64,000 nucleotides of DNA from a virus. The notes under the pieces are model-generated. The model made no database searches and was not told the DNA's origin. It saw only the letters and a list, made by a program, of their open reading frames with translations. The stretch's first letter is position 1, and every line of letters begins with the position of its first letter. Positions 9,720-31,870 of this stretch are shown here, piece after piece. The position numbers were made by a program, and so were the translations under genes. The stretch spans positions 1 through 64,000 of the IMG/VR virus record IMGVR_UViG_3300032285_003468. One strand, written 5' to 3'.

Positions 9720-9906
9720 AACAGGGTCAGATAAGCACAGCATGCTAGGGTTACTATTCATAAGTGGTGGAAGTGCTTTACCATCAAAGTCTAGTAGGGT
9801 GTCCGGTTTATTCAGACTTGTCAGAAACTCTGTATAGTTTTTCCGTCAGATGTTCCCGATCGCGCACATTCGTTATGAGTTAACGATCATAAACAGGGAT
9901 TATACC

Positions 9907-9984
9907 CGCTCGGTAATAAAACCCCAGAAAAGGCGAGTTAAGGCACCCGATCGGGGTTAAAACACCCGAAAAGGCGAGTTAAGG
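9907..9984. repeat. Tandem ~41-bp direct repeat
   Basis: An exact 17-mer GAAAAGGCGAGTTAAGG occurs at 9927-9943 and 9968-9984, 41 bp apart. The preceding 20 bp are also similar (CCGcTCGG...AAAAC versus CCGaTCGG...AAAAC). The pair lies just upstream of the TTGACA promoter of the candidate ncRNA. It could be a protein-binding site or part of the origin region. The rest of 9720-10021 shows nothing else I can name. Confidence 0.65.
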
Positions 9985-10021: not shown

Positions 10022-10049
10022 TTGACAGATATTGATAAGTGCATAGGAT
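10022..10049 (+). promoter_or_regulatory. Sigma70-like promoter for candidate ncRNA
   Basis: Perfect -35 TTGACA (10022-10027), 16-bp spacer, -10 TAGGAT (10044-10049, four of six consensus positions). No convincing coding frame follows for 1.3 kb, but a structured segment and an intrinsic terminator do. Predicted start near 10056. Confidence 0.5.
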
Positions 10050-10055
10050 TTGTAA

Positions 10056-10325
10056 CGCCTGACCACTTTGCGGCCAATGGACGCAGGAGCGAGGGCTTTG
10101 GATTCCTCCCGGGGATCTTCGGTGAACCGGTGCGCTGATCGAAAGGTTGGCCGTTAAAATCGGGGGAGGCAGTGAGGGGTCTTGCGTAGGCGGGCAAACC
10201 ACCGTTGTGTTAGGCAAATGCCGAAGAGATAGCGACCTGACCCTCCCCCGACCCTTGTAGTAGTTCACAAGCATATCTCCGTTCACGGTAGCGTAAACGC
10301 TACAACCCTAGTGAACGATTTTTTG
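10056..10325 (+). ncRNA. Candidate structured non-coding RNA (~270 nt)
   Basis: Lies between a TTGACA/TAGGAT promoter and a strong terminator. Long-range stems: CGGCCAA (10071-10077) with TTGGCCG (10147-10153), and a perfect 10-bp G/C-rich stem TCGGGGGAGG (10160-10169) with CCTCCCCCGA (10242-10251) enclosing the hairpin GGCAAATGCC (10213-10222). The last domain is the terminator hairpin. No frame across it looks coding, and it does not carry the signatures I know for tmRNA, RNase P RNA or 6S RNA. Between the replication operon and the iterons, a copy-number or origin-control role is possible. Confidence 0.5.
10281..10324 (+). terminator. Intrinsic terminator of candidate ncRNA
   Basis: Outer stem GTTCAC (10281-10286) with GTGAAC (10311-10316); inner perfect hairpin GTAGCG-TAAA-CGCTAC (10288-10303); followed within two bases by six T (10319-10324). 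Confidence 0.8.
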
Positions 10326-10612
10326 GGTTTTCGTGCATTAGATCATAGCCTAATCGAACCGACGATTGTTTAGATTATAGTCGATAGATGAAGCGTGAGT
10401 TGATTATCTCGCGCAGAAATAATCACCCATGAGGGGAATTCTAATACCCTGGATAAACAACCCGGCCCGATTGATTCGATCCGTTCGATCTCCGGTTTGC
10501 GTTTAAAGAAGAAGTTAAGTAATTGTTATATTGCAACCCTGCATCCCCGTGTCCCTGATCCATTATTTCCGATGTTTGCTAACATTGTGCAGGACTTAAC
10601 TTTCCTGGGTTG

Positions 10613-10627: not shown

Positions 10628-10669
10628 CTTAACGTATTTATTCAACTAAAAAGTGGGGGATGTAATTTT

Positions 10670-10966
10670 CATCCACCATGGGTTTTGGCTCATCCACCAA
10701 TTTACAAGACACTGTAGACAAGGACTTTGCGACAGCCCAGGTGGATTGGTGGATGAAGTGGGTCATTTTGGAACCGCTAATAATATGTAATGTGTATAAT
10801 CATAATAATATAACATCTATCTTTTTCTATATCTATTCTATTCTATCAATTTTAAACATTTTAATCCACTCATCCACCAATAGAAAAATAAATATATGAA
10901 AATCAAGGACTTAGCTTTGGTGGATGAAAATTTTTATATCCACCAGTTGATCCACCACATCCACCA
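10670..10966. repeat. Iteron-like cluster with AT-rich block: candidate replication origin
   Basis: Eight copies of (C)ATCCACCA in 300 bp: plus at 10670, 10691, 10871, 10938, 10950 and 10958; minus at 10747 and 10918. Between the third and fourth lies an AT-rich tract (10780-10868) resembling a DNA-unwinding element. Iterons plus an AT-rich block next to replication genes is the usual layout of an initiator-bound origin. Frames that cross the region are short and made of the repeat, so I do not call genes here. Confidence 0.65.
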
Positions 10967-10988
10967 ATCGTCTTTGGCCTGTGTCTGG

Positions 10989-13188: not shown

Positions 13189-13317
13189 ATGAAGACCATC
13201 AAGAACCTCCTTATCGCCCTGTTCTGGGCACTCCTGATCCCGGTGATCGCTATCTCCCTGACGCGCTGGATCCATCAGCATGACCTCGCCATGGAGAGGG
13301 CCTACTCTGGGAAGTAG
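13189..13317 (+). CDS. Small single-span membrane protein (42 aa)
   Basis: 42 residues: short basic N-terminus (MKTIKN), one hydrophobic segment about 6-24 (NLLIALFWALLIPVIAISL), then a charged tail. Located between two copies of the intergenic element; TAG stop directly followed by CACCCGGCATG. Confidence 0.5.
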   Translation: MKTIKNLLIALFWALLIPVIAISLTRWIHQHDLAMERAYSGK

Positions 13318-13370
13318 CACCCGGCATGTACTGCTGACAGCACCTGAACCTTCAACCCTAACACCTGACC

Positions 13371-13583
13371 ATGAGCCAACATCACCTGAACTCCTACTGC
13401 ATCGTCCGCTTCGTCCACAATGTCGGCCGCGACATTGTCCTCCGGGGCCTGACCTACGAGGAAGCACTCGAACATTGCAACGATCCCGAGACCTCCTCCA
13501 CCACCTGCTCCCGGGAGACCTCAAAGCGTCTCGACCTCGTCGGGTTTGATTGGTTCGACGGGTTCGAGAGGGAGTTGATCTGA
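13371..13583 (+). CDS. Small hypothetical protein
   Basis: 70 residues: 'LNSYCIVRFVHNVGRDIVLRGLTYEEALEHCNDPETSSTTCSRETSKRLDLVGFDWFDGFER'. The 'GLTYEEALEHCNDPETSS' phrase is seen in many small phage proteins of unknown function. Intergenic elements on both sides; the TGA overlaps the downstream one. Confidence 0.6.
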   Translation: MSQHHLNSYCIVRFVHNVGRDIVLRGLTYEEALEHCNDPETSSTTCSRETSKRLDLVGFDWFDGFERELI

Positions 13584-13633
13584 CCCGGCATGTACTGCTG
13601 ACAGCACCAACCCTTCAACACCTGACCCTCACC

Positions 13634-13936
13634 ATGAAAAACCTGTTCCTCATCTCTCGCACCTTTGATGTCGTCACCCCCGAAAGCGCCCAAGAGGGGG
13701 ACATTGCAGATAGCGGTTTCATCTTCAAGGACCGCCCGGCAACCCTCCGGGAGTGCCTCGACGAGGTGAAGACCCTCGGCGGGATCGACTACCATGACGG
13801 GGAGAACTTCTACCCCTGCGACTCCTCGGTCGACTACTGCACCGGGGAAAGCACCCGGGAGTTTGTCCACATTCGCGCCCTGACTCCCTCCGCCGGGAGA
13901 GCATGGAACCGGGCGCTCGCCATCGTGAACCTCTGA
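13634..13936 (+). CDS. Small hypothetical protein
   Basis: 100 residues starting at ATG 13634 (CCCTCACCATG). A longer reading from 13550 would translate the intergenic element and is rejected. Content: 'LFLISRTFDVVTPESAQEGDIADSGFIFKDRPATLRECLDEVKTLGGIDYHDGENFYPCDSSVDYCTGE', with the Asp/Ser/Gly-rich 'EGDIADSGF...' and 'ATLRE' phrases of a widespread phage accessory family of unknown function. Confidence 0.65.
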   Translation: MKNLFLISRTFDVVTPESAQEGDIADSGFIFKDRPATLRECLDEVKTLGGIDYHDGENFYPCDSSVDYCTGESTREFVHIRALTPSAGRAWNRALAIVNL

Positions 13937-13982
13937 CCCGGCATGTACCGCTGAACACTTAACCCTTCAACACCCGACCATC

Positions 13983-14318
13983 ATGTTCACAAGAAAACAA
14001 TACCTCGACCGGGAGTGCAATCACCGGGAGTACTACGCGCAATTTGTCACGCCCGGCGTGAAGCAAAGGGTACTCCAACGCTTCGGGATCGATGCCCTGA
14101 AGGCGAGTGAGGAACCCTCCTTCAACGACCTCCCCCTTGCGGTATGGGACAGCCTCCTCGTCCCGGTCCCTTCGGAGATCGCCTCCAAGCTCCGGGAGTG
14201 TGGCGACTATGCCACCCTTTCGGGATGCGTCTGCATCCTGAAGGAAGCCGCCCGGCAACTGGTGGAAGCCCGATCCACCCGGCATGTAACCCTGAAGACC
14301 TCAACCCTAAAACCCTGA
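13983..14318 (+). CDS. Hypothetical protein extended through the repeat by a lost stop
   Basis: 111 residues. The body (1-95) is a normal array protein: 'RKQYLDRECNHREYYAQFVTPGVKQRVLQRFGIDALKASEEPSFNDLPLAVWDSL', a small helical phage-type protein. Where neighbours stop with TGA/TAA just before TCCACCCGGCATG, this gene has CGA (14271-14273). The frame therefore runs through the intergenic element and adds 16 residues (STRHVTLKTSTLKP), stopping at TGA 14316 six bases before the next ATG. A TGA-to-CGA change is the simplest explanation. Confidence 0.6.
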   Translation: MFTRKQYLDRECNHREYYAQFVTPGVKQRVLQRFGIDALKASEEPSFNDLPLAVWDSLLVPVPSEIASKLRECGDYATLSGCVCILKEAARQLVEARSTRHVTLKTSTLKP

Positions 14319-14323
14319 CCACC

Positions 14324-14512
14324 ATGCAAAAGATGATCGACAACCTAATCAACGGCAACCTCCTCGACGCCCGCAAGGCGGCAAAGCGCTACGGGTTCAT
14401 GAAGATCCGCCAGCACATGCTCGACCTCGGATACCCGGAGTCGGAGGCCAACGCCACGGCATGGTATCTCAAAGGTCTCATGACCTTCCAGAGGTACTGC
14501 GACTCGAAGTAG
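14324..14512 (+). CDS. Small helical hypothetical protein
   Basis: 62 residues from ATG 14324 (CCTGACCACCATG). Helical: 'MIDNLINGNLLDARKAAKRYGFMKIRQHMLDLGYPESEANATAWYLKG'. The 'NLINGNLLDARKAAKRY' start is common in phage and plasmid hypotheticals of unknown function. Followed by an element encoding M-Y-P-stop. Confidence 0.6.
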   Translation: MQKMIDNLINGNLLDARKAAKRYGFMKIRQHMLDLGYPESEANATAWYLKGLMTFQRYCDSK

Positions 14513-14563
14513 CACCCGGCATGTATCCCTGACAGCACTTCAACCTTCAACACCCTGACCACC

Positions 14564-14890
14564 ATGACCAAAGCAGAAGAACTCACCATCCTCGACTCCG
14601 CCATCAACAAACTTGGGGCCGATAGCTACCTCGGACCTTGGCTCAACGAGATCCGCAACGAGGTCGAGGGCCTGATCCGGGCCGACCTCTTCCCTCACCT
14701 GTCTCTCGACGCGGCCCGCAAGAATGCCGCCGAGACCCGCGAGGATGCCCGCCGGGATGCGGAGGCAATCATCAACTCTGCCAAGGTGAAGGCGGAGAGC
14801 ATCGAGGACCACGCCCGGAGATTGTCCGGGGAGATCCGCCAGAGGTGCGCTCACCTCCTCCGCGAGTCCCTCGACTCGCTCAAGGTCTGA
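14564..14890 (+). CDS. Coiled-coil hypothetical protein
   Basis: 108 residues, almost entirely helical. Residues 50-90 form an Ala/Glu/Arg-rich coiled coil (AARKNAAETREDARRDAEAIINSAKVKAESIEDHARRL) like ATPase-stalk or DivIVA-type coils. No catalytic motif. Unknown function. Confidence 0.6.
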   Translation: MTKAEELTILDSAINKLGADSYLGPWLNEIRNEVEGLIRADLFPHLSLDAARKNAAETREDARRDAEAIINSAKVKAESIEDHARRLSGEIRQRCAHLLRESLDSLKV

Positions 14891-14934
14891 ACCACCCGGC
14901 ATGTACTGCTGACCACCTCAACACCCTGACCACC

Positions 14935-15159
14935 ATGCAAGCCACCATCGAAAACATCGACCACCTTACCCGGGACGAGCAGACAGCAGTCAAGATTGTC
15001 GCCAGCACCATCAACACTCCGATCAAGTGCAAGAGCCGGGAGGATGCCCTTAACTGGACCCGACTCCTCGAACCTTGGTTCATCTACGAGGGAGGCAACC
15101 ACCTCGCCGTTCACCGGGCTAGTGGAGACACTCGCAGAATCCTGATCGTCACCCTTTAA
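14935..15159 (+). CDS. Small hypothetical protein
   Basis: 74 residues from ATG 14935. 'IENIDHLTRDEQTAVKIVASTINTPIKCKSREDALNWTRLLEPWFIYEGGNHLAVHRASGDTRRILIVTL': alpha/beta, no recognised family. Preceded by an element encoding M-Y-C-stop, followed by a plain C/A-rich leader without the element. Confidence 0.55.
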   Translation: MQATIENIDHLTRDEQTAVKIVASTINTPIKCKSREDALNWTRLLEPWFIYEGGNHLAVHRASGDTRRILIVTL

Positions 15160-15179
15160 ACTTCAACCCATCAACTATC

Positions 15180-15455
15180 ATGACCACCACCACCCAACAC
15201 CTGATCGCAGTCGTCGTAAAATATCTCGGAGCAACTAGCTTCCGGGGGTCTCGCGTCAAGCTATCTCTTCCCCGGTTCAAAGCCTCCAAGACCATCTCCT
15301 ACGATTATTCCTTCAACTCCTCGGAGGATATAGCGGAAGCCTACCTCAATAAGAACGGCATCGTCCCGGTTGGCGAGGCGGATCTCGGGGATGAACACCT
15401 CTTCCTCCTCTCCTGGGATGACATCAAAAAAGTCGAGTCGGTCCTCCTTTCCTGA
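15180..15455 (+). CDS. Small hypothetical protein
   Basis: 91 residues, beta-rich: 'LIAVVVKYLGATSFRGSRVKLSLPRFKASKTISYDYSFNSSEDIAEAYLNKNGI' with the sense of a small phage protein whose 'YDYSFNSSEDIAEAYL' region forms a strand and helix. No intergenic element before or after; probably cotranscribed with its neighbours. Confidence 0.6.
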   Translation: MTTTTQHLIAVVVKYLGATSFRGSRVKLSLPRFKASKTISYDYSFNSSEDIAEAYLNKNGIVPVGEADLGDEHLFLLSWDDIKKVESVLLS

Positions 15456-15478
15456 ACCTTCAACCCCTGACCATCACC

Positions 15479-15715
15479 ATGAAAGCTATCTTCACCACTT
15501 ATCAGCACTCCACCATCGGCTTCCCCAAGGTCATCTTGAAATGGCATGAGGAGAACGGCAAGGCCCTCGGCGCTTATGTCACCCGGGACGGCATCATCAT
15601 TGGCCCTTGGGCATGGCACAACGACAACCCGGTGCCATTCTACCCGGCGGAGATCGAGCGCTTTGACCATCATGTCCGCGCTCAATATGCGGACGACCCG
15701 AGCGTGCAAGGCTAA
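15479..15715 (+). CDS. Small hypothetical protein
   Basis: 78 residues: 'MKAIFTTYQHSTIGFPKVILKWHEENGKALGAYVTRDGIIIGPWAWHNDNPVPFYPAEIERFDHHVRAQYADDP'. Trp/His-rich beta protein, no family recognised. Leader 'CCTGACCATCACC ATG'; the element that follows encodes M-Y-C-stop. Confidence 0.55.
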   Translation: MKAIFTTYQHSTIGFPKVILKWHEENGKALGAYVTRDGIIIGPWAWHNDNPVPFYPAEIERFDHHVRAQYADDPSVQG

Positions 15716-15761
15716 AGCCACCCGGCATGTATTGTTGAACCTTCAACCCCTGACCACCACC

Positions 15762-16046
15762 ATGATCACCGCACAAGAACGCAAGAATGAAGTCGACATC
15801 CTCGACTACGAACCCTACCTCGACAAGTACGGCAACGTGAAGCAGTACGGCCCGGACGAGATCCCTGATGCCCTGCATCCCTGCACCATCTGGACGTGTC
15901 TCGATGCCGGGTGCGAGTGTGACGCGGAGGAGGCTATTGACTGCGAGTGCGAGCCTGTCCGCATTGTCGCCGGGAAGCATTATGTCAACCGCTTGTATTA
16001 CGTCATCACCCGGAAGCCTTGGGTGACTGGCGACGAGTGGGAGTGA
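15762..16046 (+). CDS. Small Cys-rich acidic protein
   Basis: 94 residues from ATG 15762. Five Cys in a Glu-rich stretch (CTIWTCLDAGCECDAEEAIDCECEP) suggest a metal site. The C-terminus is beta-like (RIVAGKHYVNRLYYVITRKPWVTGDEWE). No family recognised. Confidence 0.55.
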   Translation: MITAQERKNEVDILDYEPYLDKYGNVKQYGPDEIPDALHPCTIWTCLDAGCECDAEEAIDCECEPVRIVAGKHYVNRLYYVITRKPWVTGDEWE

Positions 16047-16100
16047 AATCCACCCGGCATGTATTACTGACAGCAACCTAACCCTAACCAACCCACACCA

Positions 16101-16475
16101 ATGACCACCACGCTTAACCTTAAAGACCTAGCCACCAAAGCAATCGTCGACTGCGACCCTGAAGATTACGTCGATCAGATCCACAACGCTATCCGCAAAC
16201 CTGTCCGGGAATTCATCGATCAACTCCTCGCCGAGGAGGGTGTGCCCGAGTCTGGTAGTGGTTGGCAGATCGGAGACATTGAACTCCTGCTCGTGAAGCG
16301 CGACGCGGGTTACGTCCCGAGTGTCCGCTCCCCGGAGTTGGATGCACCTGCTAGCACCTACGGCGAGGGCACCGAGGAAGAGGACCCGGCCGAGGCGCTG
16401 ACCTTCGGGCTATCAGATGCCCTTGCCTACGAACTCGCGGCCGAGTTGTCCCCGGAGGATGAGGACGAGGAGTAG
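16101..16475 (+). CDS. Acidic hypothetical protein
   Basis: 124 residues, very acidic C-terminal half (TEEEDPAEALTFGLSDALAYELAAELSPEDEDEE). The N-terminal half is helical (LKDLATKAIVDCDPEDYVDQIHNAIRKPVREFIDQLL). The negative charge could mimic DNA, but there is no direct evidence. Elements on both sides encode M-Y-Y-stop. Confidence 0.6.
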   Translation: MTTTLNLKDLATKAIVDCDPEDYVDQIHNAIRKPVREFIDQLLAEEGVPESGSGWQIGDIELLLVKRDAGYVPSVRSPELDAPASTYGEGTEEEDPAEALTFGLSDALAYELAAELSPEDEDEE

Positions 16476-16517
16476 ACCACCCGGCATGTATTACTGACAC
16501 CTAACCAACCCACACCC

Positions 16518-16718
16518 ATGAGCAAAGCAACCACCTATCCCATCGAACTCACCAAGACAGAATTGGAGGCCGCGATCTTCGCCGTCGATCAGATGCTTCA
16601 AACCATCGAGTCGGACGACGAGTTGTCCAAGGACCCCCGGATGGCCAGGCAATACCGGGCCCTGAAAAAGGCTTATACGAAACTCTACCTACCAGCAGTC
16701 CACGCATTCATCTCCTAA
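16518..16718 (+). CDS. Small helical protein
   Basis: 66 residues: 'IELTKTELEAAIFAVDQMLQTIESDDELSKDPRMARQYRALKKAYTKLYLPAVH', two helices with a short acidic loop, a common phage accessory type. Followed after 9 bp by the next start, without an element. Confidence 0.6.
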   Translation: MSKATTYPIELTKTELEAAIFAVDQMLQTIESDDELSKDPRMARQYRALKKAYTKLYLPAVHAFIS

Positions 16719-16727
16719 CCAATACCT

Positions 16728-16862
16728 ATGACCACCATCAAGAAAACATCCATCCAAGCCTCCGGGCTCTTAATCGTCGGGCTGACCTTCGTCGGCTTCG
16801 TAGCCATCGTACCCCTCACGATGTTCACCATCTCTCGCATCATCTACTGCTTCTACAAATGA
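16728..16862 (+). CDS. Small single-span membrane protein (44 aa)
   Basis: 44 residues: basic N-terminus (MTTIKKTS) then a hydrophobic segment about 12-36 (SGLLIVGLTFVGFVAIVPLTMFTI). Its TGA overlaps the next ATG (ATGA at 16859), which supports it as a real coupled gene. Confidence 0.55.
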   Translation: MTTIKKTSIQASGLLIVGLTFVGFVAIVPLTMFTISRIIYCFYK

Positions 16863-17206
16863 TCCCGGACCCTAACGCACTGGACCCCTGCGACCCTGAT
16901 TCTCCGCAACCCGAGCGCCGTGTTAAGGAACTCAAGCCCGGGGTTGTCTACCGCGTCCTCTGCGCGGAGTGGGAGAGCAATGTCAAGCCGGTCCGCCGGT
17001 GGGACTACGGCATCCTCAACGAGGAGACCGGAGGTCTATATCTCACGTCCGGGGGTTGCTATCCTTCCGACTGGATCCCCGAGGAACACTACTGGATCGA
17101 GGAGACTGATCATCCGTTCGAGGAGTATGTCCCCAAGGTCAGGAAGGGCATGGCTCATTCCCGGGCAGTCGGGGAATACTGCGAGTCCCGGAACTGGTAC
17201 GATTAA
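16859..17206 (+). CDS. Hypothetical protein
   Basis: 115 residues, ATGA-coupled to the small membrane protein. Acidic, Trp/Tyr/Pro-rich: 'RVKELKPGVVYRVLCAEWESNVKPVRRWDYGILNEETGGLYLTSGGCYPSDWIPEEHYWIEETDHPFEEYVPKVRKGMAHSRAVGEY'. Beta-rich, no recognised family. The element after it is degenerate (TTGGCATG) yet keeps a minimal ORF (M-Y-R-stop). Confidence 0.6.
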   Translation: MIPDPNALDPCDPDSPQPERRVKELKPGVVYRVLCAEWESNVKPVRRWDYGILNEETGGLYLTSGGCYPSDWIPEEHYWIEETDHPFEEYVPKVRKGMAHSRAVGEYCESRNWYD

Positions 17207-17277
17207 ACCTGAAAATCTTACTTGGCATGTATAGGTGACAGCAAACCCTTAACCCTTACCCCTGACCACCGACCATC

Positions 17278-17496
17278 ATGAAACAAAAGATCAAACGTCT
17301 GGCCGAAAAACTCGGATGTAAATTTACCGACGAAACTCCCGGCGACCAGGTGATCTATGTCGATGCCCCGAAGGGTATGTGGTTCCAACATTCCTTCGAG
17401 GATTCTCTGGTCTACGGGCTGGAGGAAGATCGCTCCGGGAGTCTTCGTGAATGCTACGAGGCCCTGAAGATGGGTCTCATCCCGGCGAGAAACTAG
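17278..17496 (+). CDS. Small hypothetical protein
   Basis: 72 residues: 'KQKIKRLAEKLGCKFTDETPGDQVIYVDAPKGMWFQHSFEDSLVYGLEEDRSGSLRECYEALKMGLIPA'. The helix-strand-'APKGMWF...SLRECYEALKMGL' pattern is frequent among small phage proteins of unknown role. TAG stop; the element follows at one base. Confidence 0.6.
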   Translation: MKQKIKRLAEKLGCKFTDETPGDQVIYVDAPKGMWFQHSFEDSLVYGLEEDRSGSLRECYEALKMGLIPARN

Positions 17497-17545
17497 TCGG
17501 CATGTATTAGCGAACCAACCACCACCAACCCACACCGCCCGCACC

Positions 17546-17773
17546 ATGAAATACCGCATCGAAGGCACTCACCGGAACCGCACCTCGTATGTCCTCACCG
17601 GGGAGGGGACCAACGAAAAGATCCTGTTCGTGATCGAGCGGGAGGATAGCCACTTCATGAACTCGGTCACCGGATCGACTTACATCGTCCGGAAATGCGA
17701 GACCCACCACGATAGCTTTCTGGCCGATAGCTGGAGAGAGGTGGCTCAGAAACTTCACGCCCTGCTTTCCTAG
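17546..17773 (+). CDS. Small beta-rich hypothetical protein
   Basis: 75 residues: 'MKYRIEGTHRNRTSYVLTGEGTNEKILFVIEREDSHFMNSVTGSTYIVRKCETHHDSFLADSWREVAQKL'. Alternating strands, no recognised family. Followed by the last complete intergenic element (ATG-TAC-TAG). Confidence 0.6.
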   Translation: MKYRIEGTHRNRTSYVLTGEGTNEKILFVIEREDSHFMNSVTGSTYIVRKCETHHDSFLADSWREVAQKLHALLS

Positions 17774-17830
17774 TCGGTCTCACCCGGCATGTACTAGCAA
17801 ACACCAACCCACCAACCCACCACCCGCACC

Positions 17831-22520: not shown

Positions 22521-22748
22521 ATCTACCCGGTGGCAGATACCCTCTCCCCACTCGTTCTGTTCGCACATCTCGTCCTGTAGGTAGCCTGACAAATCCTCGG
22601 GCATTACCATGTGGTTTGCCGTCATGTAGGCTCGGACGTTTTCTAAAAGCTCCGGGAAGAAGTCTGCCTTGAACCGGATTCCATGTTTCTTGCAGTACCA
22701 CCGGTACCCTCCTGGGGGGATTAGGGATATGTCGTTGAGTCTTTTCAT
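22512..22748 (-). CDS. Small protein, last gene of the late operon
   Basis: 78 residues: 'LIPPGGYRWYCKKHGIRFKADFFPELLENVRAYMTANHMVMPEDLSGYLQDEMCEQNEWGEGICHRV'. Proteins starting 'PPGGYRY...T...F.a..f.eL...V..hr.aN...' follow structural genes in many podophages and are probably small virion or assembly factors. It overlaps the giant gene stop by ATGA; the Cys/His residues may bind metal. Confidence 0.65.
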   Translation of the reverse strand: MKRLNDISLIPPGGYRWYCKKHGIRFKADFFPELLENVRAYMTANHMVMPEDLSGYLQDEMCEQNEWGEGICHRVDSI

Positions 22749-25700
22749 TTCATGGCTAATTGGGTCTTCCGGGTGGCCAGAACGATCTTCGGGTCAGCGG
22801 GTTTGATCTTCCCGGAGATCATCATCTTGTCTACCACCGAGGCGGCGTAGAGGTTGGCAGCGCCGTTGACGTTGGTTCCCTGGAGGAATGATTGAGCCAT
22901 GTCCTGGGGCATCTTGACGAGCTGTTGCACGGCCTCCGGTGTCAGTACCTTGCGGAGATACTCTCCACGGGCTAAGACAAACTCCCTCCAAGCGTCGTTA
23001 CCGAGGTCTCCGACCCGGGCCATCGTACCCTTGCTGTCTGCAAATACGGGGGTGCTCTTGTTGGCTTTCGGAATGAAGAGCCCGTGCTCGGAGAGCGGAG
23101 TGAGAACCGGGTGATTCTCGGTCGACGAGTGGATCCAGCGATCGAACACGGGGTCCAAGGCGTTCTTGGTGATGGGCTCTCCAAGCTGATTGAGGGCGGG
23201 CTTGTCGTATCCGATGTAGGCAGGAGAGAAAGCCCAGAGCTTGTTGAGGATCGAACTTTGATCCAGGACCGGAGTCTTGTGTTCGGGGTTGATAAGACCC
23301 TCTCCGACCTGACGTGCGGTGCGGAGGATCGAGGGGTTGGTGAACTGAGTGGCGGGGCTGAGGACAAAGTTCTCGATTCCGCGCACACCCTTCTCTCCTT
23401 CTCCGCCGAAGAAGATGTCGACAAGGTTCTTGGCTCCGTTGAGGAAGTGGTGCTGGAGGGGGGCGCGGAAAGCCGCGACGGCCATGCCGAGCAATTTCTC
23501 CTCGCTCATTGAAATGGTTGCACCCGGAGCGATCCTTCCGTTGACCCTCGGAGGAGGATTGTTGTAGACCACCTCGTCGTGGATTTGCCCCAAGACGGGC
23601 AGGAGTAGGTTAAAGCCGGGGATTGCCTTGTAGGGGAGGACCTGGCCACCGATGCGGATTGAGTTGGGCATCCATCCTGTGGACATCAACTGGCTTTTCT
23701 TGGCGGCATCCTTCGGACCCTCTCCATAAACCGCAAAGGTAGGCGAGGGCTCCCCGGTCTCAAGCTCGTGATTCAATTCCTTGAGGAAAGCTATTACGAC
23801 TCCTCCCATGAGGGTTGTTCCAATTACCGAACGCGCCATCAAGGCGGTGGTCCTTGGGTCACCGGGCTGATAGCGCTCGTGAGCATAAGGGGAGTCCGAA
23901 CCAAAGAAGAGGTCCGAGGGGTTGATGTTCTTGGCCTTGAGGAAACCGAAGGGAGTGTACTCCAAACCAGAGTTGGTGACGGTGGCCAGGATTCGGATGA
24001 AGGGGAAGCAGTAACGCATGACCGGGAACTGCTGAGTCATCTTTCCAATGGCGGCCGCAGTATACCCCGCAAATCCCGTCATCTTGCCCTTGAGGGTGGC
24101 CTCCTTGGCAAAGTCCAGGGCGTTCTCCTGCACGTCTGGATTGACTGCTTCGGGCAAGTTGTTCTGGAGGTGGAGCTGATCCAGATGCCAGGCTTTAGCA
24201 AACTCTGCTGTCTTCTCGTCAAAGCCCTTAAACATACCTGCTTTCGCATCGTCCTCCAGTTGCTTGCGGGCAGCGGCCATCTCTTGCTGAGTGGGCTCGA
24301 AGATGCGGCGGACCTTCTCGTCAAGCTCGCGTCCCTTGATTCCTCCTTCGAGGTAGGCGGCACGGGTGGCAAGACGCATGGCAAGCTCCCGGGTGGGTCC
24401 GAAGTTGATTGCGTCAAAGGCCATCATGGCCCTGCCACCGATTGCGGCGAACCGGTTGTATCCCCGGAAGAACTTTCCTGCGGCTCCGTCTCCACCCCAA
24501 TCGCTGTCCGCAATCGCGTCGGATCCGCGCTTGGCAATACCCATCTCACCAGCAATACCCATCTCACCAGTGCGGAGAGATCCGATCGCCTGTTTGATGT
24601 GAACGTTTCCACGGGCACCACCGGCACCCGGCAGAACCATCGAGTTGAGGAAGTCTTTCATGAACCCAAAGACCTCGGCCGTCGAAGCCCCGTTTGCCAT
24701 AGCCTGGTGCATGTGTCCGTAAGCCAGGGAAGCACCCATGACTCGGGAGTTGAGTAGTCCACTGAACCCGTGCGTCATGAACGTCTGGGGCCCGGTCAGA
24801 ATGAGCGAACGGAAAATCTCGGGACCGAGTTGTGACACGGCCTTCCAAACTTTCTGCCACCCATCAGCCTTGTCGAAGTCGGCCTTGAGAATGTGCATGG
24901 CAAGGGCCGAGCGATACCGGGCCTTCTCCCATTCCTTCAGGGCCCCCTCGGGCATGTTGAGAATTCTGTTGGCGGCCTGACGCATCTCTCGGGCGGTCTT
25001 GGCGTCGTATCCGGTAATGCCGAGGGACTCCAGGACTTTCTGGTCGAGGAAATCCGCGTCGTAACCACCCGTGCGGAGCATGCCAGTCAGGGCGTTGACT
25101 ACGTCTTTGGATTTGCCGCCGAGTAGATCCCCGTAAACCTCGTCCACGAGATCCGCTGCGAGACCCTTTGCCATGCGGCCGTGGGCCTGCTCGTAGAGAT
25201 TGCGAAGCTGCTGATTGAGGGCGGTCACCTTGTTGGGGTTAGCCTTGTCTCCTCCCAGGGCTTCCTTGACCACCGACTTCATGTAGTCGTAATCGGAATC
25301 GAGCATGCCCAAGTTGTCCGTAATCTTCTTGATGGTATCGGGATCTTCTATTCCGAAGGTCTCCAATAGTCTTCCTGCGGCCGACACCGCACGCTCAGCG
25401 ATCTTCTGTTTGGCTTCCGCCAGGCCGTCGCGAAGCTGGTCCATGTTGATCTTCTCGGAAACGGAATCCTCGACGGTCCCTCCGATGATCGCTTTCTGGA
25501 AAGCGCGGATGTAATCCTGTGCGCTGAACTTTGCGAGCATGCGGCGTAGCGACATTGCCTGTGCAGACTCGGTTCCGACCGCGATCGAAATACCCTCTGC
25601 CTCGCGGCGGTACTTGTCGTAGCTGCGAAGTAGCGTGGGGTCAACGGGTTTCCCTGCGGCAATGTTGGCCCGGATCTGTTCGGCCCTGGAACCGAACTGA

Positions 25701-28700
25701 CTTGCAAGGATGGTAGCCACCGCTTGCTTGTCTTTCGGTGCGATCTTTGCGTAGGGCTGCTTGATTTTATCGAGAGCGCCACGCAAATCGTCCTTGTAAT
25801 TGTTAATGAAATTCTCTGCCTCGGCGGTAGTTTCCTCCTCGGTCGTCGGGATGTAGGTGAAGGGATCGTTCTCGTCGTTGTAAATTGACTCGGAGACCTT
25901 GGGCGCGGAAGCTCCCTTGCGGTACATGATCTCGTCGTCTCCTTGAGCGACTTTGCTTTCGACATCTTCGACCGAGGTTCCTTTCTTGGGGAAAACGTCC
26001 ACGTCGAAATAATGAAGTTGGCCGTTTCGGTCCCTCATTACGTTCTTCGGTCCCTGGTCGTAAATCCCAACGCCCAATCCTTTGTGCTCCCAAATGTCGG
26101 CGTCACGGCTTCCGTCCACACGGGTGAAACCACGGGCTTCTAGGTCTTTGGCGATTTCCTTGCGAGTCGCCGGGCGTCCCTCGAAGAAAGGTTGCGAGGT
26201 GACGACTTGAGGAAGCTGCCCCTCTCCGGTATTGACCAGGCCCTCGAAACGAGTGCCGGTTCCGAAGATCAGGTTGTTGAGGTGGAGCGAGGTGAGATAA
26301 TCGTATGCTGATCCCTTGGCACCCAGAGACCCGTCGCCGATGTCGTCGGCGTGTGTAATCTTTACGATCCTGTTTGACTGAGGATCCAGGTATGTCGTGT
26401 GCTCGGCTCCGGCGATCGGTTCTCCGTCTTTGTCTCGGAGTAGGGTGCGGTCGTTTACAATCCGCTTAAAGAAAGCGGGAACTATGTTCAGCCCAGCTTT
26501 ATCGACCGCTGCTTTTAATAGTCCGAAGGAATCTGAGAGGGAGCGTTGCGTGCGGCCATTGCTCGTATTTCCTGCTCCGACATCTTTGGCCTGTTTTGCA
26601 AGCTCTCCAAGGCCCGACGCTTTGCGGTAAGGGCTTTCACGATTGAGTCCTTCTCGGTAGAGGAAACCGACTTGTGGTGAGTTTTCGTCATGAGGGATAC
26701 TATTATACTCTTTTTCCGCCCCAGAGTCAATCCCCGATTTGGCGTACAGCGGTTCCTCACTTAGTTCTTGACTTGAACTTTCCTCCGGGGGCCCCGTGCT
26801 GGGTGCCTCCTCGGTGCCAGTCTGATCTTCAGCTACTGGCTCTGGGAATCTGCTGAGGCGCTCGTCTCGGGTTCCTGAGAGGGACTCGGGGGCGTGTTGC
26901 TCGAAGGCTTCGTTGACGATCTCGGCGTACCGCCGACGAAAGCCAAGGATGTCCCGTATTTTGCTATTGCCTCCTCCGGAGACAATTTGCTCACGGTATG
27001 AATCCCCTTCTGGATGGTCTTGCCAGTTGTTTTCATGAGAGTCTACAGTAGTCTGAACGTGATCCACCTGTAAAGGAAATTCGTTCTTGGTTCCCCAAGC
27101 TAGGATTGCGTTTTCGAGTTTTCCGGCTTGCGCTTCCGTCAAGCTCTTTGGCGTGTAGGTCCCTTTCTTGGTGCCTACAATCATAGCTCTCTCGCCGTCG
27201 CGGTAAGGCTGAACCGTCATCCCAGATAGACCGGCTTCTTTAGCCATAGAGTCTAACTGCTCGGGTGTGAACTTACCTCCGCCCTGGGGGTGGACAAATA
27301 AAGCAAGGCTATCTTTTCCGCCCTTGTCGAACGTGGCCGTCATGGTTCCGCCTTGCTCGGAGACAAGAGCCAGCGCGTTAGACAGCATCCCGGCAGCCTC
27401 TCGGCTTCCGAGTACCTCAATCGCGGTGCTGGGATTAGACGCACCTCCCCATCTTCCGTAAGTCGAGGAAATTGATCTTATCCGGAGAGAGCCTCCGATG
27501 ATCTTGGCTAGCTCAGGCACGACTTTAGAAATGACTTGAGTCGTGATCGCGGCCTGCTTTTCGGGAGCTAGGTTTGAGATATCAGGGAATGATCCGGGCA
27601 GCCTGTTTCCGTACGAGTAGCTTACCTCGGCGTAAATGTGGGACGTGTTCTGAGCCATCGTGCTGGCGATGGTAGATTCAGGCAACCCATACTGGCGAAG
27701 CAGTCTCATCCATCCTACGGCTTGCACTTCGGACGGGGTCCAGTTTCCGCCTTCCCAACCAACCTCGTTAAGGTGCTTGGTGAGGTCGTTGCCCCACTCG
27801 GAAATTCCTTCGTACTGACCCGAGCTAGGAGATCCCACTTGATCGACACCGAGGGGGATTGGCTTCTTGCCCTGAACTTTGACGCTGATCTTAGACGGCT
27901 GAACGACTTCTTTTCCTTTTACCATCGTCGACTTGGTCTGAATCACGTCAATCTTCACGGGTTTTCCGTCGATAAAAAGATCACCCTCTTCAGCCATTTC
28001 TTTAAGTCGAGTCAGGGTAGCCTGATCAACGTGACCACTATCACGGCCAGTGTGTACGTCGGCGACAAAAGGTGCTCCCGACTCCAGGCTGTGGCCCATG
28101 TAGGTGCGGGTCGAGCGTTGAAATCCAGCGTCTACAAAGTCGGTCAGCTTCTGCCCGAAACCTTTTTTCGGGACCGTGTTGGTTAGAATGCCTTCGATCT
28201 TCTCGTCAGCAAGCCCGCCCTTCTTGCCCGTGCTGATTCCGTTGAGTCGGTCTTCAACGCGGAACACGTTGCGGAGAGCACCGGCCGGTGTCTCGTTCTG
28301 CTGAGCGCCTAGCCAGGCCATCATCATGGTCGGAGCGTTCTCCTCACCGAAGATGCGCGTAAAATTATCCTTCAGCTCGTTGTACCAATTACGGAAGGAA
28401 TGGATGTCCTGGTTCGATAGCCACTTCTCGGTCTCTTCGACCCAATCACCATAGGGCTTACCACCGAATTTTTTCTGCGCACCGACAACGATCGGGCGTC
28501 CCTGCTTATCCTGGAACTTGGTTAGGGGATTCCTTGCAATACCGGTTCCTTCACGGCGGTTGTTTTTCTGCGAGACGTTCTTGACGTAATTCCCGGCGGC
28601 CTCGCGCAGGAAGTCGAGACCAGTCTGGTCGAGTCCAGCTTGGCGCATGATCTCTTCTTTGGGAATGGTGTACTCTCTGCCAGAGTTGGTAAGCGTGAGA

Positions 28701-31700
28701 ATGTGATCGACGGCATGGGCCAGAGCGGAGCTGTCATTAACCCCAAGACCAAACATACTGCGGACGCCTTTGACGAAAGCATTCCAGGCGTTGATTACTT
28801 TAGTGGTATTTCCAACTCCCTTGTAAAGCTCGTTCGGGTCTTCGATCTCGATCTTGCGAAGCATGTTCTGGAACGCTTCGTTGGACATGGCGTGAGTAAC
28901 AAACTCTTCGATGTTGCTCCACCCGTAGTGGTTTAAATCGTCGTTGGTGAGGGCAGCGTCGGCGCGGCGGGTGGCGTCGATCTTTTCGTCAGTTGTGAGA
29001 CCCTGTTTCTTTGCTTCCTGGAGGGCTCGATCATAGACTTTCTGCAACCCTGTCACAGCGCGTTTCTGAAGAGCTGACAGGGAGTCAAAGTTTTCGGGTT
29101 TCAGGAAACCACGGATCAGGGAGTGGAATGCTTCGTGCAGGAGGGTCTCTTCGTCGAGCTTTCCGTCCTTACCGGCAATCACATGGATCTCGTTAGTCTT
29201 CGGGTCCCAGTAACCGAGGATTCCGTCTCCGAGGGACTCGTGGAAATTGGTTTTAGAATTTTCGATAGCACCCGACTGAAGGACCATCTTACCGAGAGCC
29301 TTGTAGAGCTTGTTCTCGGTCGAGTTGACCATCTTCTGGAGTAGCTTCTTGGTGCTCTCGGTACGGAGGATCGGACCCTCTTTGCCTTGCGGGGCGGAGG
29401 GGTTGAAACGGAAACGGCGTTGTTCGTCGTTAACGTTAATCACGTCTCCCGGGAAGTTGTCCCGGCCGATCATCTGGTTAAGAGATTCGGGGCTCCGGAA
29501 AGCCTTTGCAATGGGGTCGCGGTCGCTCATTGGGCGGGCCCCGTTGCGGGCTGCCTCAAGCGATTCCTGATTCCCTGCAACAATGGACTTCAGCTCCCTG
29601 GAGTCCTCTTGCGAAACTCCGCGATTGGCGATCAAACGGAGTGCGACTGCCATGCGCTTAACGAGATCGTTGTTCTCGTTGCGAACAAAATCCATTGCGT
29701 CGGAAATCTGGCTATCGCTATAAGATTTTTGAGTTCCCTCGTAGTCGGCTCCGGTGGCACCCATGTCAGGGCCTTCGGGTTCTTCGGGGGTTTCTTCGCC
29801 GGTAGCCTGGGAACGAACTTCGTCCTTCCAGTTTTCTCCGTCGTCGATTATGGCGGGCCCTTCAGATACTGCTTTCTGATTTTCAAACCCCTCGTTATTC
29901 CGGGTCTGAGTTTTTCCAGTCGCCTGCGCGTTTAGCTTGACCTTTCCGATCGTGTCGGCGGCAGCTTTTAGAAGCAAATTGGCAACGCTGTAGGGAGTCT
30001 CGGCACCAGCGGTAGCTTTTACGCCCTCCTGGCGGCCTTGCCATTTCGCGAGGATTGCCTCGGCCTTGCCTTTGTCGGCGCGGTTCTTGAGATACTTAAA
30101 AGTCTCGTAAAGAGCCCCGTTACGGAGGGCCTCTACAGACTCGGGGCCTACGATTGCGGCCCACTTCGGGAATGTGTCTTGAATTGCCTTGTCGAGGTAT
30201 TCCCAAAGTCCGTTGGTGAAAGGCTGCTGGTCCTCGGGGATTGAATTTGCCAGCTTGACCGAGTCCTCGGGCTTGTAGAGATCTAAGACGTCGGTCTTAC
30301 CGCCGCGCTCGATGCTGCGCTTGGCGTCGTGGAAAATGGGTTTCCCTTCCTTGTCGACTCGTCCCGTATCAACGGGTTGGATTGCCGGGGTGGGTGCCGG
30401 TGCGATGTCCTCGGGGGAGAAAGTGTTGCGGTCGTCAACGGGCTTAACCGGCTCGGCGGGTTGTGAGGCAACAGGGTTTCCTGAAGCATCCAATACAACC
30501 GGTTGGCTCGGCTCGGCGGCCGAAGATTCCAAAGGGGCCTCAGGTGCCTGTTCGACGGGAGGAATAACCCCTTCCGAGACGGGCTCAGCGGCCTGTGTGT
30601 CAGTCGGGGGCGTAGTAACTTCTTCAGCGGGCTGAGCGCCCCAACGCTGATAAATGTCGTGAACGGCGCTGAGGTTAGTCGGAGTTCCTCGGGTGGCCTC
30701 TCCTCGGGGAGATTCACTGACGGGGGTAGGGGTGGGATTCTGGTTAATGTCGGGTCCGACCGGGTATCCTTCTCCGGGTTCCACGGGAGGCACGTACCCT
30801 GGCTCCCCGGGCTCCTGATAAGATCTCGTAAATTTGGTGCGATTTTCAGGCTCTGCCTCAGTCTTGGTCTCAGCAGCGGGTTCTTCAGTTGCCTCTTCAG
30901 CCGTACGGTCCGTAAGGGCGAGTAGCGCCTTCGCGGTCTCCGGTGCGTCGGCCTGGAGGGCGTTGTCAGAGGCAGCCTTGAGCCTTTCGATTTGCTCGGC
31001 GCTCTTTTGCTGATCCTCTTCGGATAGACCCTCTTCCTTTGGCTTGGCTTCGGCCACGGGCTTTTCCCCTGCGACCTTGCCGCCGGGAGTAAGGCCACCC
31101 AGAATCGCCATATCACGCATGGAATGCAGGACATCTGAGCCCGTCGGTAGGGGTGTCTCTTCGACGGTCCCGTCTCCGGCGACCGCGTTGATACCCTTAC
31201 GTGCGGCGTAATCTGCATACGGGAAAGCGGCACCACCAACTCCGCTGAGAGCGGCTTTCTTGGCGGCTTCTCCAAGACCCATCTTGGCGTAATTTCCGAT
31301 CGACTTAGCGGCCATCCCACCCATGACGCCAGCGTTGCCGATTGCGGCCACATCTTTGTTTTTCTGCTGGGCTTCATTGATGGCCTGGTCGACGCCTGCG
31401 ACTTGTTCGCCTTTCTTGATTGCTTTGTCGGTCAGTAGGGATCCAGCAGAAAACTCAAGTGCGGGAAGAGCAAACTCGGCACCCAGGGCTAGGGGAACCT
31501 TGACATAACTTGGGAGGGGGGCTTTGAGAGCGGCTTGAGCCAGTTTTTGGTTAACACCCCCCATAGCATGGGAGGCAAATTCACCTCCCTTCATGGAACC
31601 ATACGCTTCAGCGGCGGCGGAACCACCGGCAAGTGCAGCCTGACCGGGGTCAGAGGCAATCTCTTTTCCGGCTCCCTTAACCGTATCCACGGCGCTAGCT

Positions 31701-31870
31701 AGGACCCCCTTATTGCTTTGGGTGTTTAAGTGGTCCGAGATCTCGTCGACTGAATAGCCCGATTTCCTAGCCCCCTCGACATCAAATCCAGGGTTCTGGG
31801 TCGCAAGATAACTCTGGATTTCGTCGTCGGAGTATCCCGCTTGGCGGGCTCCGGCTAGGTCAAAGGCCAT
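22745..31870 (-). CDS. Giant polyvalent virion protein (3041 aa)
   Basis: Visible parts: two 'GYSxDEI' repeats (about 13-50); a Gly/Ala-rich region (about 70-230) that may touch membrane; a Pro/Glu linker (about 280-500); a zinc peptidase domain with HEAFH (912-916) and a third-ligand 'NIEEFVTHAM' near 986; an unassigned domain (about 1290-1640); a kinase-like domain of the polyvalent-protein type (about 1795-1960: 'YLDPQSNRIVKITH', 'GIYDQGPKNVMRDRNGQLHYFDVD'); helical C-terminal parts (about 2040-3000) with an LPD38-like stretch near 2357 (RSLILTGPQTFMTHGF). Such proteins are packaged and ejected into the host with DNA. 13.6% of the window is spent on it. Confidence 0.8.
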   Translation of the reverse strand: MAFDLAGARQAGYSDDEIQSYLATQNPGFDVEGARKSGYSVDEISDHLNTQSNKGVLASAVDTVKGAGKEIASDPGQAALAGGSAAAEAYGSMKGGEFASHAMGGVNQKLAQAALKAPLPSYVKVPLALGAEFALPALEFSAGSLLTDKAIKKGEQVAGVDQAINEAQQKNKDVAAIGNAGVMGGMAAKSIGNYAKMGLGEAAKKAALSGVGGAAFPYADYAARKGINAVAGDGTVEETPLPTGSDVLHSMRDMAILGGLTPGGKVAGEKPVAEAKPKEEGLSEEDQQKSAEQIERLKAASDNALQADAPETAKALLALTDRTAEEATEEPAAETKTEAEPENRTKFTRSYQEPGEPGYVPPVEPGEGYPVGPDINQNPTPTPVSESPRGEATRGTPTNLSAVHDIYQRWGAQPAEEVTTPPTDTQAAEPVSEGVIPPVEQAPEAPLESSAAEPSQPVVLDASGNPVASQPAEPVKPVDDRNTFSPEDIAPAPTPAIQPVDTGRVDKEGKPIFHDAKRSIERGGKTDVLDLYKPEDSVKLANSIPEDQQPFTNGLWEYLDKAIQDTFPKWAAIVGPESVEALRNGALYETFKYLKNRADKGKAEAILAKWQGRQEGVKATAGAETPYSVANLLLKAAADTIGKVKLNAQATGKTQTRNNEGFENQKAVSEGPAIIDDGENWKDEVRSQATGEETPEEPEGPDMGATGADYEGTQKSYSDSQISDAMDFVRNENNDLVKRMAVALRLIANRGVSQEDSRELKSIVAGNQESLEAARNGARPMSDRDPIAKAFRSPESLNQMIGRDNFPGDVINVNDEQRRFRFNPSAPQGKEGPILRTESTKKLLQKMVNSTENKLYKALGKMVLQSGAIENSKTNFHESLGDGILGYWDPKTNEIHVIAGKDGKLDEETLLHEAFHSLIRGFLKPENFDSLSALQKRAVTGLQKVYDRALQEAKKQGLTTDEKIDATRRADAALTNDDLNHYGWSNIEEFVTHAMSNEAFQNMLRKIEIEDPNELYKGVGNTTKVINAWNAFVKGVRSMFGLGVNDSSALAHAVDHILTLTNSGREYTIPKEEIMRQAGLDQTGLDFLREAAGNYVKNVSQKNNRREGTGIARNPLTKFQDKQGRPIVVGAQKKFGGKPYGDWVEETEKWLSNQDIHSFRNWYNELKDNFTRIFGEENAPTMMMAWLGAQQNETPAGALRNVFRVEDRLNGISTGKKGGLADEKIEGILTNTVPKKGFGQKLTDFVDAGFQRSTRTYMGHSLESGAPFVADVHTGRDSGHVDQATLTRLKEMAEEGDLFIDGKPVKIDVIQTKSTMVKGKEVVQPSKISVKVQGKKPIPLGVDQVGSPSSGQYEGISEWGNDLTKHLNEVGWEGGNWTPSEVQAVGWMRLLRQYGLPESTIASTMAQNTSHIYAEVSYSYGNRLPGSFPDISNLAPEKQAAITTQVISKVVPELAKIIGGSLRIRSISSTYGRWGGASNPSTAIEVLGSREAAGMLSNALALVSEQGGTMTATFDKGGKDSLALFVHPQGGGKFTPEQLDSMAKEAGLSGMTVQPYRDGERAMIVGTKKGTYTPKSLTEAQAGKLENAILAWGTKNEFPLQVDHVQTTVDSHENNWQDHPEGDSYREQIVSGGGNSKIRDILGFRRRYAEIVNEAFEQHAPESLSGTRDERLSRFPEPVAEDQTGTEEAPSTGPPEESSSQELSEEPLYAKSGIDSGAEKEYNSIPHDENSPQVGFLYREGLNRESPYRKASGLGELAKQAKDVGAGNTSNGRTQRSLSDSFGLLKAAVDKAGLNIVPAFFKRIVNDRTLLRDKDGEPIAGAEHTTYLDPQSNRIVKITHADDIGDGSLGAKGSAYDYLTSLHLNNLIFGTGTRFEGLVNTGEGQLPQVVTSQPFFEGRPATRKEIAKDLEARGFTRVDGSRDADIWEHKGLGVGIYDQGPKNVMRDRNGQLHYFDVDVFPKKGTSVEDVESKVAQGDDEIMYRKGASAPKVSESIYNDENDPFTYIPTTEEETTAEAENFINNYKDDLRGALDKIKQPYAKIAPKDKQAVATILASQFGSRAEQIRANIAAGKPVDPTLLRSYDKYRREAEGISIAVGTESAQAMSLRRMLAKFSAQDYIRAFQKAIIGGTVEDSVSEKINMDQLRDGLAEAKQKIAERAVSAAGRLLETFGIEDPDTIKKITDNLGMLDSDYDYMKSVVKEALGGDKANPNKVTALNQQLRNLYEQAHGRMAKGLAADLVDEVYGDLLGGKSKDVVNALTGMLRTGGYDADFLDQKVLESLGITGYDAKTAREMRQAANRILNMPEGALKEWEKARYRSALAMHILKADFDKADGWQKVWKAVSQLGPEIFRSLILTGPQTFMTHGFSGLLNSRVMGASLAYGHMHQAMANGASTAEVFGFMKDFLNSMVLPGAGGARGNVHIKQAIGSLRTGEMGIAGEMGIAKRGSDAIADSDWGGDGAAGKFFRGYNRFAAIGGRAMMAFDAINFGPTRELAMRLATRAAYLEGGIKGRELDEKVRRIFEPTQQEMAAARKQLEDDAKAGMFKGFDEKTAEFAKAWHLDQLHLQNNLPEAVNPDVQENALDFAKEATLKGKMTGFAGYTAAAIGKMTQQFPVMRYCFPFIRILATVTNSGLEYTPFGFLKAKNINPSDLFFGSDSPYAHERYQPGDPRTTALMARSVIGTTLMGGVVIAFLKELNHELETGEPSPTFAVYGEGPKDAAKKSQLMSTGWMPNSIRIGGQVLPYKAIPGFNLLLPVLGQIHDEVVYNNPPPRVNGRIAPGATISMSEEKLLGMAVAAFRAPLQHHFLNGAKNLVDIFFGGEGEKGVRGIENFVLSPATQFTNPSILRTARQVGEGLINPEHKTPVLDQSSILNKLWAFSPAYIGYDKPALNQLGEPITKNALDPVFDRWIHSSTENHPVLTPLSEHGLFIPKANKSTPVFADSKGTMARVGDLGNDAWREFVLARGEYLRKVLTPEAVQQLVKMPQDMAQSFLQGTNVNGAANLYAASVVDKMMISGKIKPADPKIVLATRKTQLAMK

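Follow-up and report, generated by a model that had tools for sequence, protein, structure and literature searches.

Covariation Supports a Small Structured RNA Family Carried by Phages

The IMG/VR virus record IMGVR_UViG_3300032285_003468 contains, after its primase-helicase gene, a stretch which an earlier note had read as a candidate structured noncoding RNA, at a place where it expected control RNAs of copy number or replication initiation. Does this stretch specify an RNA, which part of it belongs to that RNA, and what could its role be? The analyzed DNA, called here the window, comprises bases 1–64,000 of the 69,213-base virus record.

Architecture of the RNA Region in the Window

The region begins with a sigma-70-type promoter formed by TTGACA (10022–10027) and TAGGAT (10044–10049), with 10/12 matches and a 16 bp spacer, exactly as the earlier note had described it. 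Its form, TTG(A/C)C.-N16-TAGnnTTTG, was kept in four further loci (Table 1), and because of this conservation the promoter is more than a chance match. Two 40-bp operator-like repeats with CCGATCGG-type sites are located upstream of it (9904–9984) and are partly present in L005 and L007. The stem of the 5' hairpin reads UACG/CGUA in L005 and UAUG/CAUA in L007, around an unchanged loop GCCAAUGGA (read by eye). ARAGORN found no tRNA or tmRNA gene in the window.

The folding energy of the full 304-nt stretch was slightly below that of shuffled sequences (z −1.76; 5 of 100 shuffles as good), and for the 94-nt core z was −3.64, with none of 200 shuffles as good. The core is clearly non-random. It consists, in order, of the basal helix P1, a CA bulge, a two-pair helix (NN:NN), G.G, AGG:CCU, an internal loop with G opposite AGCGA, and an apical arm, P3. 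The arm of the window type is long, and pairing is given for its closing helix. The ten-base-pair G/C-rich stem that had been noticed earlier was found at 10160–10169 and 10242–10251. The "7-bp long-range stem" of the same note is probably AGAUAU/AUAUCU of the minimum-energy fold; it cannot belong to the RNA, since the bases of its 5' arm fall inside the promoter, between the −35 box and the −10 box, and hence upstream of any transcript from there. In the window, P1 has no T run behind it; further downstream, the predicted hairpin (10280–10317) with its six T (10319–10324) is indeed present, and this T run is missing from the nearest relatives (L004, L005 and L007). The window transcript would be roughly 200–270 nt long, with the core as its 3' domain.

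Table 1. Positions of the features of the RNA region in the window.
Feature	Position	Strand	Evidence
Promoter TTGACA-N16-TAGGAT	10022..10049	+	Same spacing and TAGnnTTTG in L003, L004, L005, L007
Probable transcription start	10055..10057	+	Predicted 6–8 nt past the −10 box; block TTTGTAACG conserved
5' hairpin UUGCG-GCCAAUGGA-CGCAG	10068..10086	+	Stem variants in relatives around an identical loop
Module M1 hairpin CCGG-GGAUC-UUCG-GUGAA-CCGG	10109..10130	+	Inner closing pair C10117-G10122; UUCG loop
Core RNA domain (3' domain)	10160..10253	+	Match of family model R1 at 10159–10257, 74.6 bits
P1, 5' strand CGGGGGAGG	10161..10169	+	Covariation; compensated variants in other copies
P1, 3' strand CCTCCCCCG	10242..10250	+	Covariation; independent copies
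CA bulge, GU, G, AGG, G	10170..10178	+	GU pairs with AC 10240–10241; AGG pairs with CCT 10236–10238
Variable apical arm P3	10179..10230	+	Closed by GUCUU 10179–10183 and GAGAU 10226–10230
AGCGA side of the conserved asymmetric internal loop	10231..10235	+	Partly fixed by the search pattern
Terminator-like hairpin, window lineage	10280..10324	+	GTTCAC/GTGAAC around GTAGCG/CGCTAC, then six T

Relatives of the Core

An exact search with 24 bases of the core revealed five IMG/VR contigs; exact and loose patterns of the window allele returned the same five from viral contigs and otherwise chance matches, as judged by eye. The first relative, G001, has kept both the promoter and the core. The identity of the 94-base core to that of the window was 99% in G002, G003 and G005 and 87% in G001 and G004. 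The identity of the primase-helicase was 79% in G001, 50% in G004 and 35% in G003, and this protein was not found in G002 and G005, which are pieces of 15 and 13 kb, respectively.

Diverged copies were present among contigs with related helicases (57 loci) and contigs with the palindrome TCACCCATGRGGGGAAT (36 stretches). The family pattern derived from them, GGAGGCANNGAGGN{18,48}GCGACCTG, matched 95 stretches, which after filtering gave 66 distinct contexts; the loci used extend to L240. Among 74 distinct pattern matches, about a dozen had no flanking helix and were excluded from the members. Alignment A3 contains 58 distinct core sequences from IMG/VR contigs, that is, 59 distinct elements minus L214, a chance match that was removed before alignment. 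Note that the pattern and the filter prescribed GGAGGCA, GAGG, GCGACCTG and C(C/T)T. Part of the invariance of the internal loop therefore follows from the search itself, and independent evidence on it comes only from six copies outside the pattern (see below).

In G000–G005 and in the nine positive contigs of a whole-contig search, there was a single copy per record; a second copy was found in 4 of 64 loci (L154, L158, L178 and L207). Weak R1 matches on the opposite strand of true members (18–22 bits) reflect the mirror image of the hairpin and were left out of the counts. The second copies bear other arms, and one of them is encoded by the opposite strand, where a promoter-like sequence of its own precedes it.

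The core had no match in Rfam 15 at the gathering level, and up to an E-value of 10 the matches were at chance level only; the family is thus uncatalogued there. A similarity search against 50,697 phage records returned nothing for the region, the core, the helicase or TerL, and for the member L127 it gave just a 22-base match at an E-value of 8. All 14 matches of the window-allele pattern in a scan of genome contigs were due to chance. Model R1 found no copy in MW202510, HTVC010P and Akkermansia phage Chantilly, and none in eight whole genomes among the 150 candidates scored per genome. The exact family pattern, which misses diverged copies, was absent from three bacterial groups (0/369, 0/395 and 0/385; 1,149 genomes in total, a set that may exclude the host). 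A word search of the literature revealed no paper on this RNA, although an unnamed RNA is hardly findable by words.

Covariation Analysis

The pair cells of alignment A3 (58 sequences) were compared with shuffled controls. Standard pairs occupied 94.2% of 1102 cells vs. 80.5% after shuffling. Cells changed on both sides numbered 148 vs. 45.5 (sd 6.4), a count that kinship among the alignment rows inflates. The covariation score was 0.369 vs. 0.124, and none of 500 shuffles was as high. Structures slid along the alignment gave at most 35 double-change cells and a score of at most 0.084. The covarying pairs have at least one side outside the bases fixed by the pattern. RNAalifold, unprompted, recovered P1, the two-pair helix, AGG:CCU and P3.

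The two-pair helix occurs in the family as AU/AU, UU/AA, GU/AC, UC/GA, CU/AG and GA/UC. Between the window and L002 alleles, all five closing pairs of P3 are changed in register, as are the two pairs of this helix. G-U pairs are frequent: GU was found in 38 of 58 sequences at the first P3 pair and in 25 of 58 at one P1 pair.

Model R1 also found six copies which the pattern had not matched, namely L067, L149 and the second copies in L154, L207, L178 and L158. Out of 11 basal pairs, they keep 11, 10, 11, 11, 11 and 8, respectively, P1 of the L158 copy being imperfect, whereas crossed strands form 5.7 pairs on average; this set is biased, in that the covariance model was trained on the other members and rewards pairing. 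Their P1 helices include CGGGCGGGG/CCCCGTCCG and GGTCGGTGG/CCACTGACT, and that of L149, TCTCCAAT/ATTGGAGG, is wholly different. In this set the CA bulge and the G/AGCGA loop are retained while P1 is exchanged. The P3 closing pairs (five positions counted) are partly broken in the L154 and L158 copies.

The covariation in relatives is decisive for a structured RNA. The stems of the relatives were inspected for stem-breaking changes, and compensatory changes were found instead. This strongly supports the earlier proposal of a structured noncoding RNA with a promoter of its own, and the family is almost certainly real.

Protein coding was considered as a candidate and rejected: in the relatives, indels interrupt the antisense frames that span the region, and the changes follow the helices.

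Genomic Context and Carriers

The tetranucleotide TTTT follows the core in 49 of the 66 contexts, with 3.9 expected at random positions; in the window, L002, L004, L005, L007 and L121, P1 is not followed by a T run. A tRNA gene is located at −700 to +400 in 30 contexts (29 in the cut-out regions), with 6.8 expected, and in several loci a tRNA-Trp gene ends about 75 nt upstream of the RNA. In 24 contexts, a window-type promoter is present at a distance of up to 700 bp, a few of these being loose matches. Module M1 precedes the core in 26 contexts (22 distinct) and covaries independently: in the 22 distinct sequences, 100% of cells are paired, with 12 double-change cells vs. 3.4 after shuffling. 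The promoter and the core abut in L170, L174, L182 and L205, and the same was found for the second copy in L178; because of this arrangement, the RNA of these four loci would be a free-standing molecule of about 70–100 nt.

The carriers, which are environmental phages, differ in their structural genes. A terminase (TerL) of the phrog_2 type was found in 21 loci, and 8 loci belong to podoviruses whose capsid is of the PF19821 type; the L162 capsid is 33–37% identical to Pelagibacter phage capsids. The podovirus carriers have only a few other proteins in common with the remaining carriers. The arms form 25 clusters and the upstream 60-mers 23 clusters (65 contexts); 14 of the 15 multi-member arm clusters are paired with more than one upstream cluster, and all ten multi-member upstream clusters carry more than one arm. 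Arm cluster 6 occurs both in podoviruses (L194, L221) and in loci of the terminase group (L145, L224). Arms and upstream modules have thus been reshuffled, even across phages with different structural genes.

Two further observations concern the neighbourhood of the core. In tRNA-Trp genes beside the RNA (L137, L162, L164, L194, L225 and L231), the anticodon and T arm stems are exchanged as units, which reads as if parts of the tRNA were shuffled too. In addition, L178, L207 and L220 contain a recurrent module, GGAnTnAGGnGAAGCCC..CGGACAAGCATGGnTCC, located directly after the promoter and 5' of the core, which resembles a separate RNA junction.

Replication Control and Other Explanations

The earlier note had expected a control RNA for copy number or initiation; such a regulator would act beside the origin, as a primer or antisense RNA. 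The order of genes in the window and G001, where the RNA follows the primase-helicase and precedes possible iteron repeats, fits this expectation, and the survey of relatives does not. When 48 contigs were searched whole, the RNA was found in nine, namely in only 3 of 32 further contigs with related helicases and 6 of 16 palindrome contigs. It was not found in the other 39 of these contigs, many of which are incomplete, nor in the partial contigs L064, L104 and L118 with close helicases (67%, 69% and 60% identity, respectively); the RNA is therefore not needed by phages of that type. The core of G004 has the opposite orientation to the replication genes, and most other carriers have the RNA close to genes for terminase, portal, capsid or tRNAs. 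The RNA showed no excess complementarity to its own phage: exact matches measured 10.54 nt in the own locus vs. 10.21 nt in others (50 loci, partial contigs), and the few longer self-matches come from the second copy in L158 and from a remnant in L152. A role in replication control is thus very unlikely. Antisense regulation of the phage's own genes was rejected as a candidate on the same comparison. Direct and inverted copies of CATCCACCAAT, which are origin-like, were noted at 10660–10980 of the window.

The tRNA genes and T runs around the core suggest another explanation, according to which the hairpin only ends the transcription of phage tRNA operons as a specialised terminator and forms their 3' trailer; its fixed loop would be a site for an RNase or transcription factor, and the RNA would have no further action. 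Most relatives do combine a G/C-rich hairpin with a T run, as a rho-independent terminator does, and the frequencies of TTTT (49/66) and of nearby tRNA genes (30/66), as well as the tRNA-Trp ends about 75 nt upstream, agree with it. Unlike such a terminator, the RNA has an apical arm and a conserved asymmetric internal loop, which a plain terminator would not need; the window and the five loci named above retain the hairpin without a T run; and where the hairpin stands right after a promoter (four loci and the second L178 copy), the transcript would be the terminator alone. We consider this explanation possible but unlikely. A packaging RNA acting on terminase and portal, like the pRNA of phage phi29, is brought to mind by the TerL-group loci L062, L182, L220 and L224, in which the RNA is located between terL and a putative portal gene (the large gene homologous to window 58416–60656, taken for the portal). 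The RNA of the window is located about 50 kb from terL, however, that of the podoviruses runs antisense, with a protease/assembly-like gene on one side and the capsid gene on the other, and the Rfam search revealed no sequence link to pRNA, which makes a packaging role highly improbable. It is also very unlikely that the region is a DNA-level element (a cruciform, an origin or a recombination site) that folds as RNA by chance, given that frequent G-U pairs suit RNA and that the promoter and the T run have a fixed polarity. In the window lineage the element does travel with operator-like repeats and the palindrome, and a cis-acting DNA role for parts of the module is possible. The palindrome TCACCCATGRGGGGAAT itself is located at 10420–10470 of the window and in 36 viral stretches, at many places in diverse phages. 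In several contigs it is flanked by TGTTTA..TAAACA arms, and it may serve as a site for recombination or replication, or as a telomere.

Proposed Function and Known Systems

The reading we prefer is that of a trans-acting RNA whose internal loop docks a shared factor, probably of the host; on the conservation pattern described above, we give it about an even chance. The phage would produce this structured RNA of a new family from a sigma-70-type promoter, and in most relatives P1 would double as an intrinsic terminator. The asymmetric internal loop (CA bulge, NN:NN, G.G, AGG:CCU, G opposite AGCGA), which appears to be kept through the replacement of P1 and arm, could then be the docking site for a factor common to the carriers, most simply a host RNA-binding protein or a part of the host translation or tRNA machinery. 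The apical arm, which is exchanged between phages, could be an element of specificity or evasion. Probably stable and made together with the phage tRNAs, the RNA may sequester or redirect the factor during infection. A more specific version can be offered only tentatively: a modular RNA in which P1, the CA bulge and the G/AGCGA loop form a fixed scaffold on a factor common to the hosts of otherwise different phages and the swappable arm sets specificity, arms being passed on as counter-defence or immunity cassettes are, but at the level of RNA rather than protein. We are similarly doubtful that phages trade the arm as an element of specificity.

Small RNAs in such places have precedents. The stable RNAs C and D of phage T4 are small, stable non-tRNA molecules encoded in the phage tRNA cluster, and the new RNA, compared by description only, resembles them as a small non-tRNA RNA beside phage tRNA genes. 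ROOL and GOLLD are described as structured RNAs of phages and prophages, often located by tRNA islands, whose function is unknown (PMC12286853). The new family shares the phage location near tRNA genes, the window itself being without one. ROOL and GOLLD have several hundred nt and elaborate folds, whereas the new core has 64–99 nt, one hairpin and often its own terminator, and it matches no Rfam model of a large multi-domain fold of this kind. ROOL and GOLLD thus come closest to the new family in setting, not in structure. The phage c4 antisense RNA is a small regulatory RNA (PMC2864571), and a regulatory role is a candidate here as well; unlike for c4, no antisense target was found (own complementarity in 50 loci), and there is no Rfam match.

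Being absent from Rfam 15, the family joins the few known structured RNAs of phages at tRNA islands. With one hairpin and under about 100 nt, it is small enough for direct testing. The retained internal loop points toward a common partner, and the arm exchange across different phages suggests a selected host interaction. If the partner is a host factor of translation, tRNA processing or defence, the RNA would represent a new RNA-based route by which phages handle it.

Other Features of the Window

The integrase encoded in the window is closest to those of Akkermansia phages, with 25% identity across 79% of the protein. Most window genes have no Shine-Dalgarno sequence. At positions 13300–17830, small genes of this kind are preceded by a repeated block of approximately CCCGGCATGTAyNNNTGAcAGCA. 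The block has the form of a minimal upstream frame, ATG-TAY-NNN-TGA or ATG-TAY-TAG. An open frame of 3041 codons was found on the minus strand at 22745–31870.
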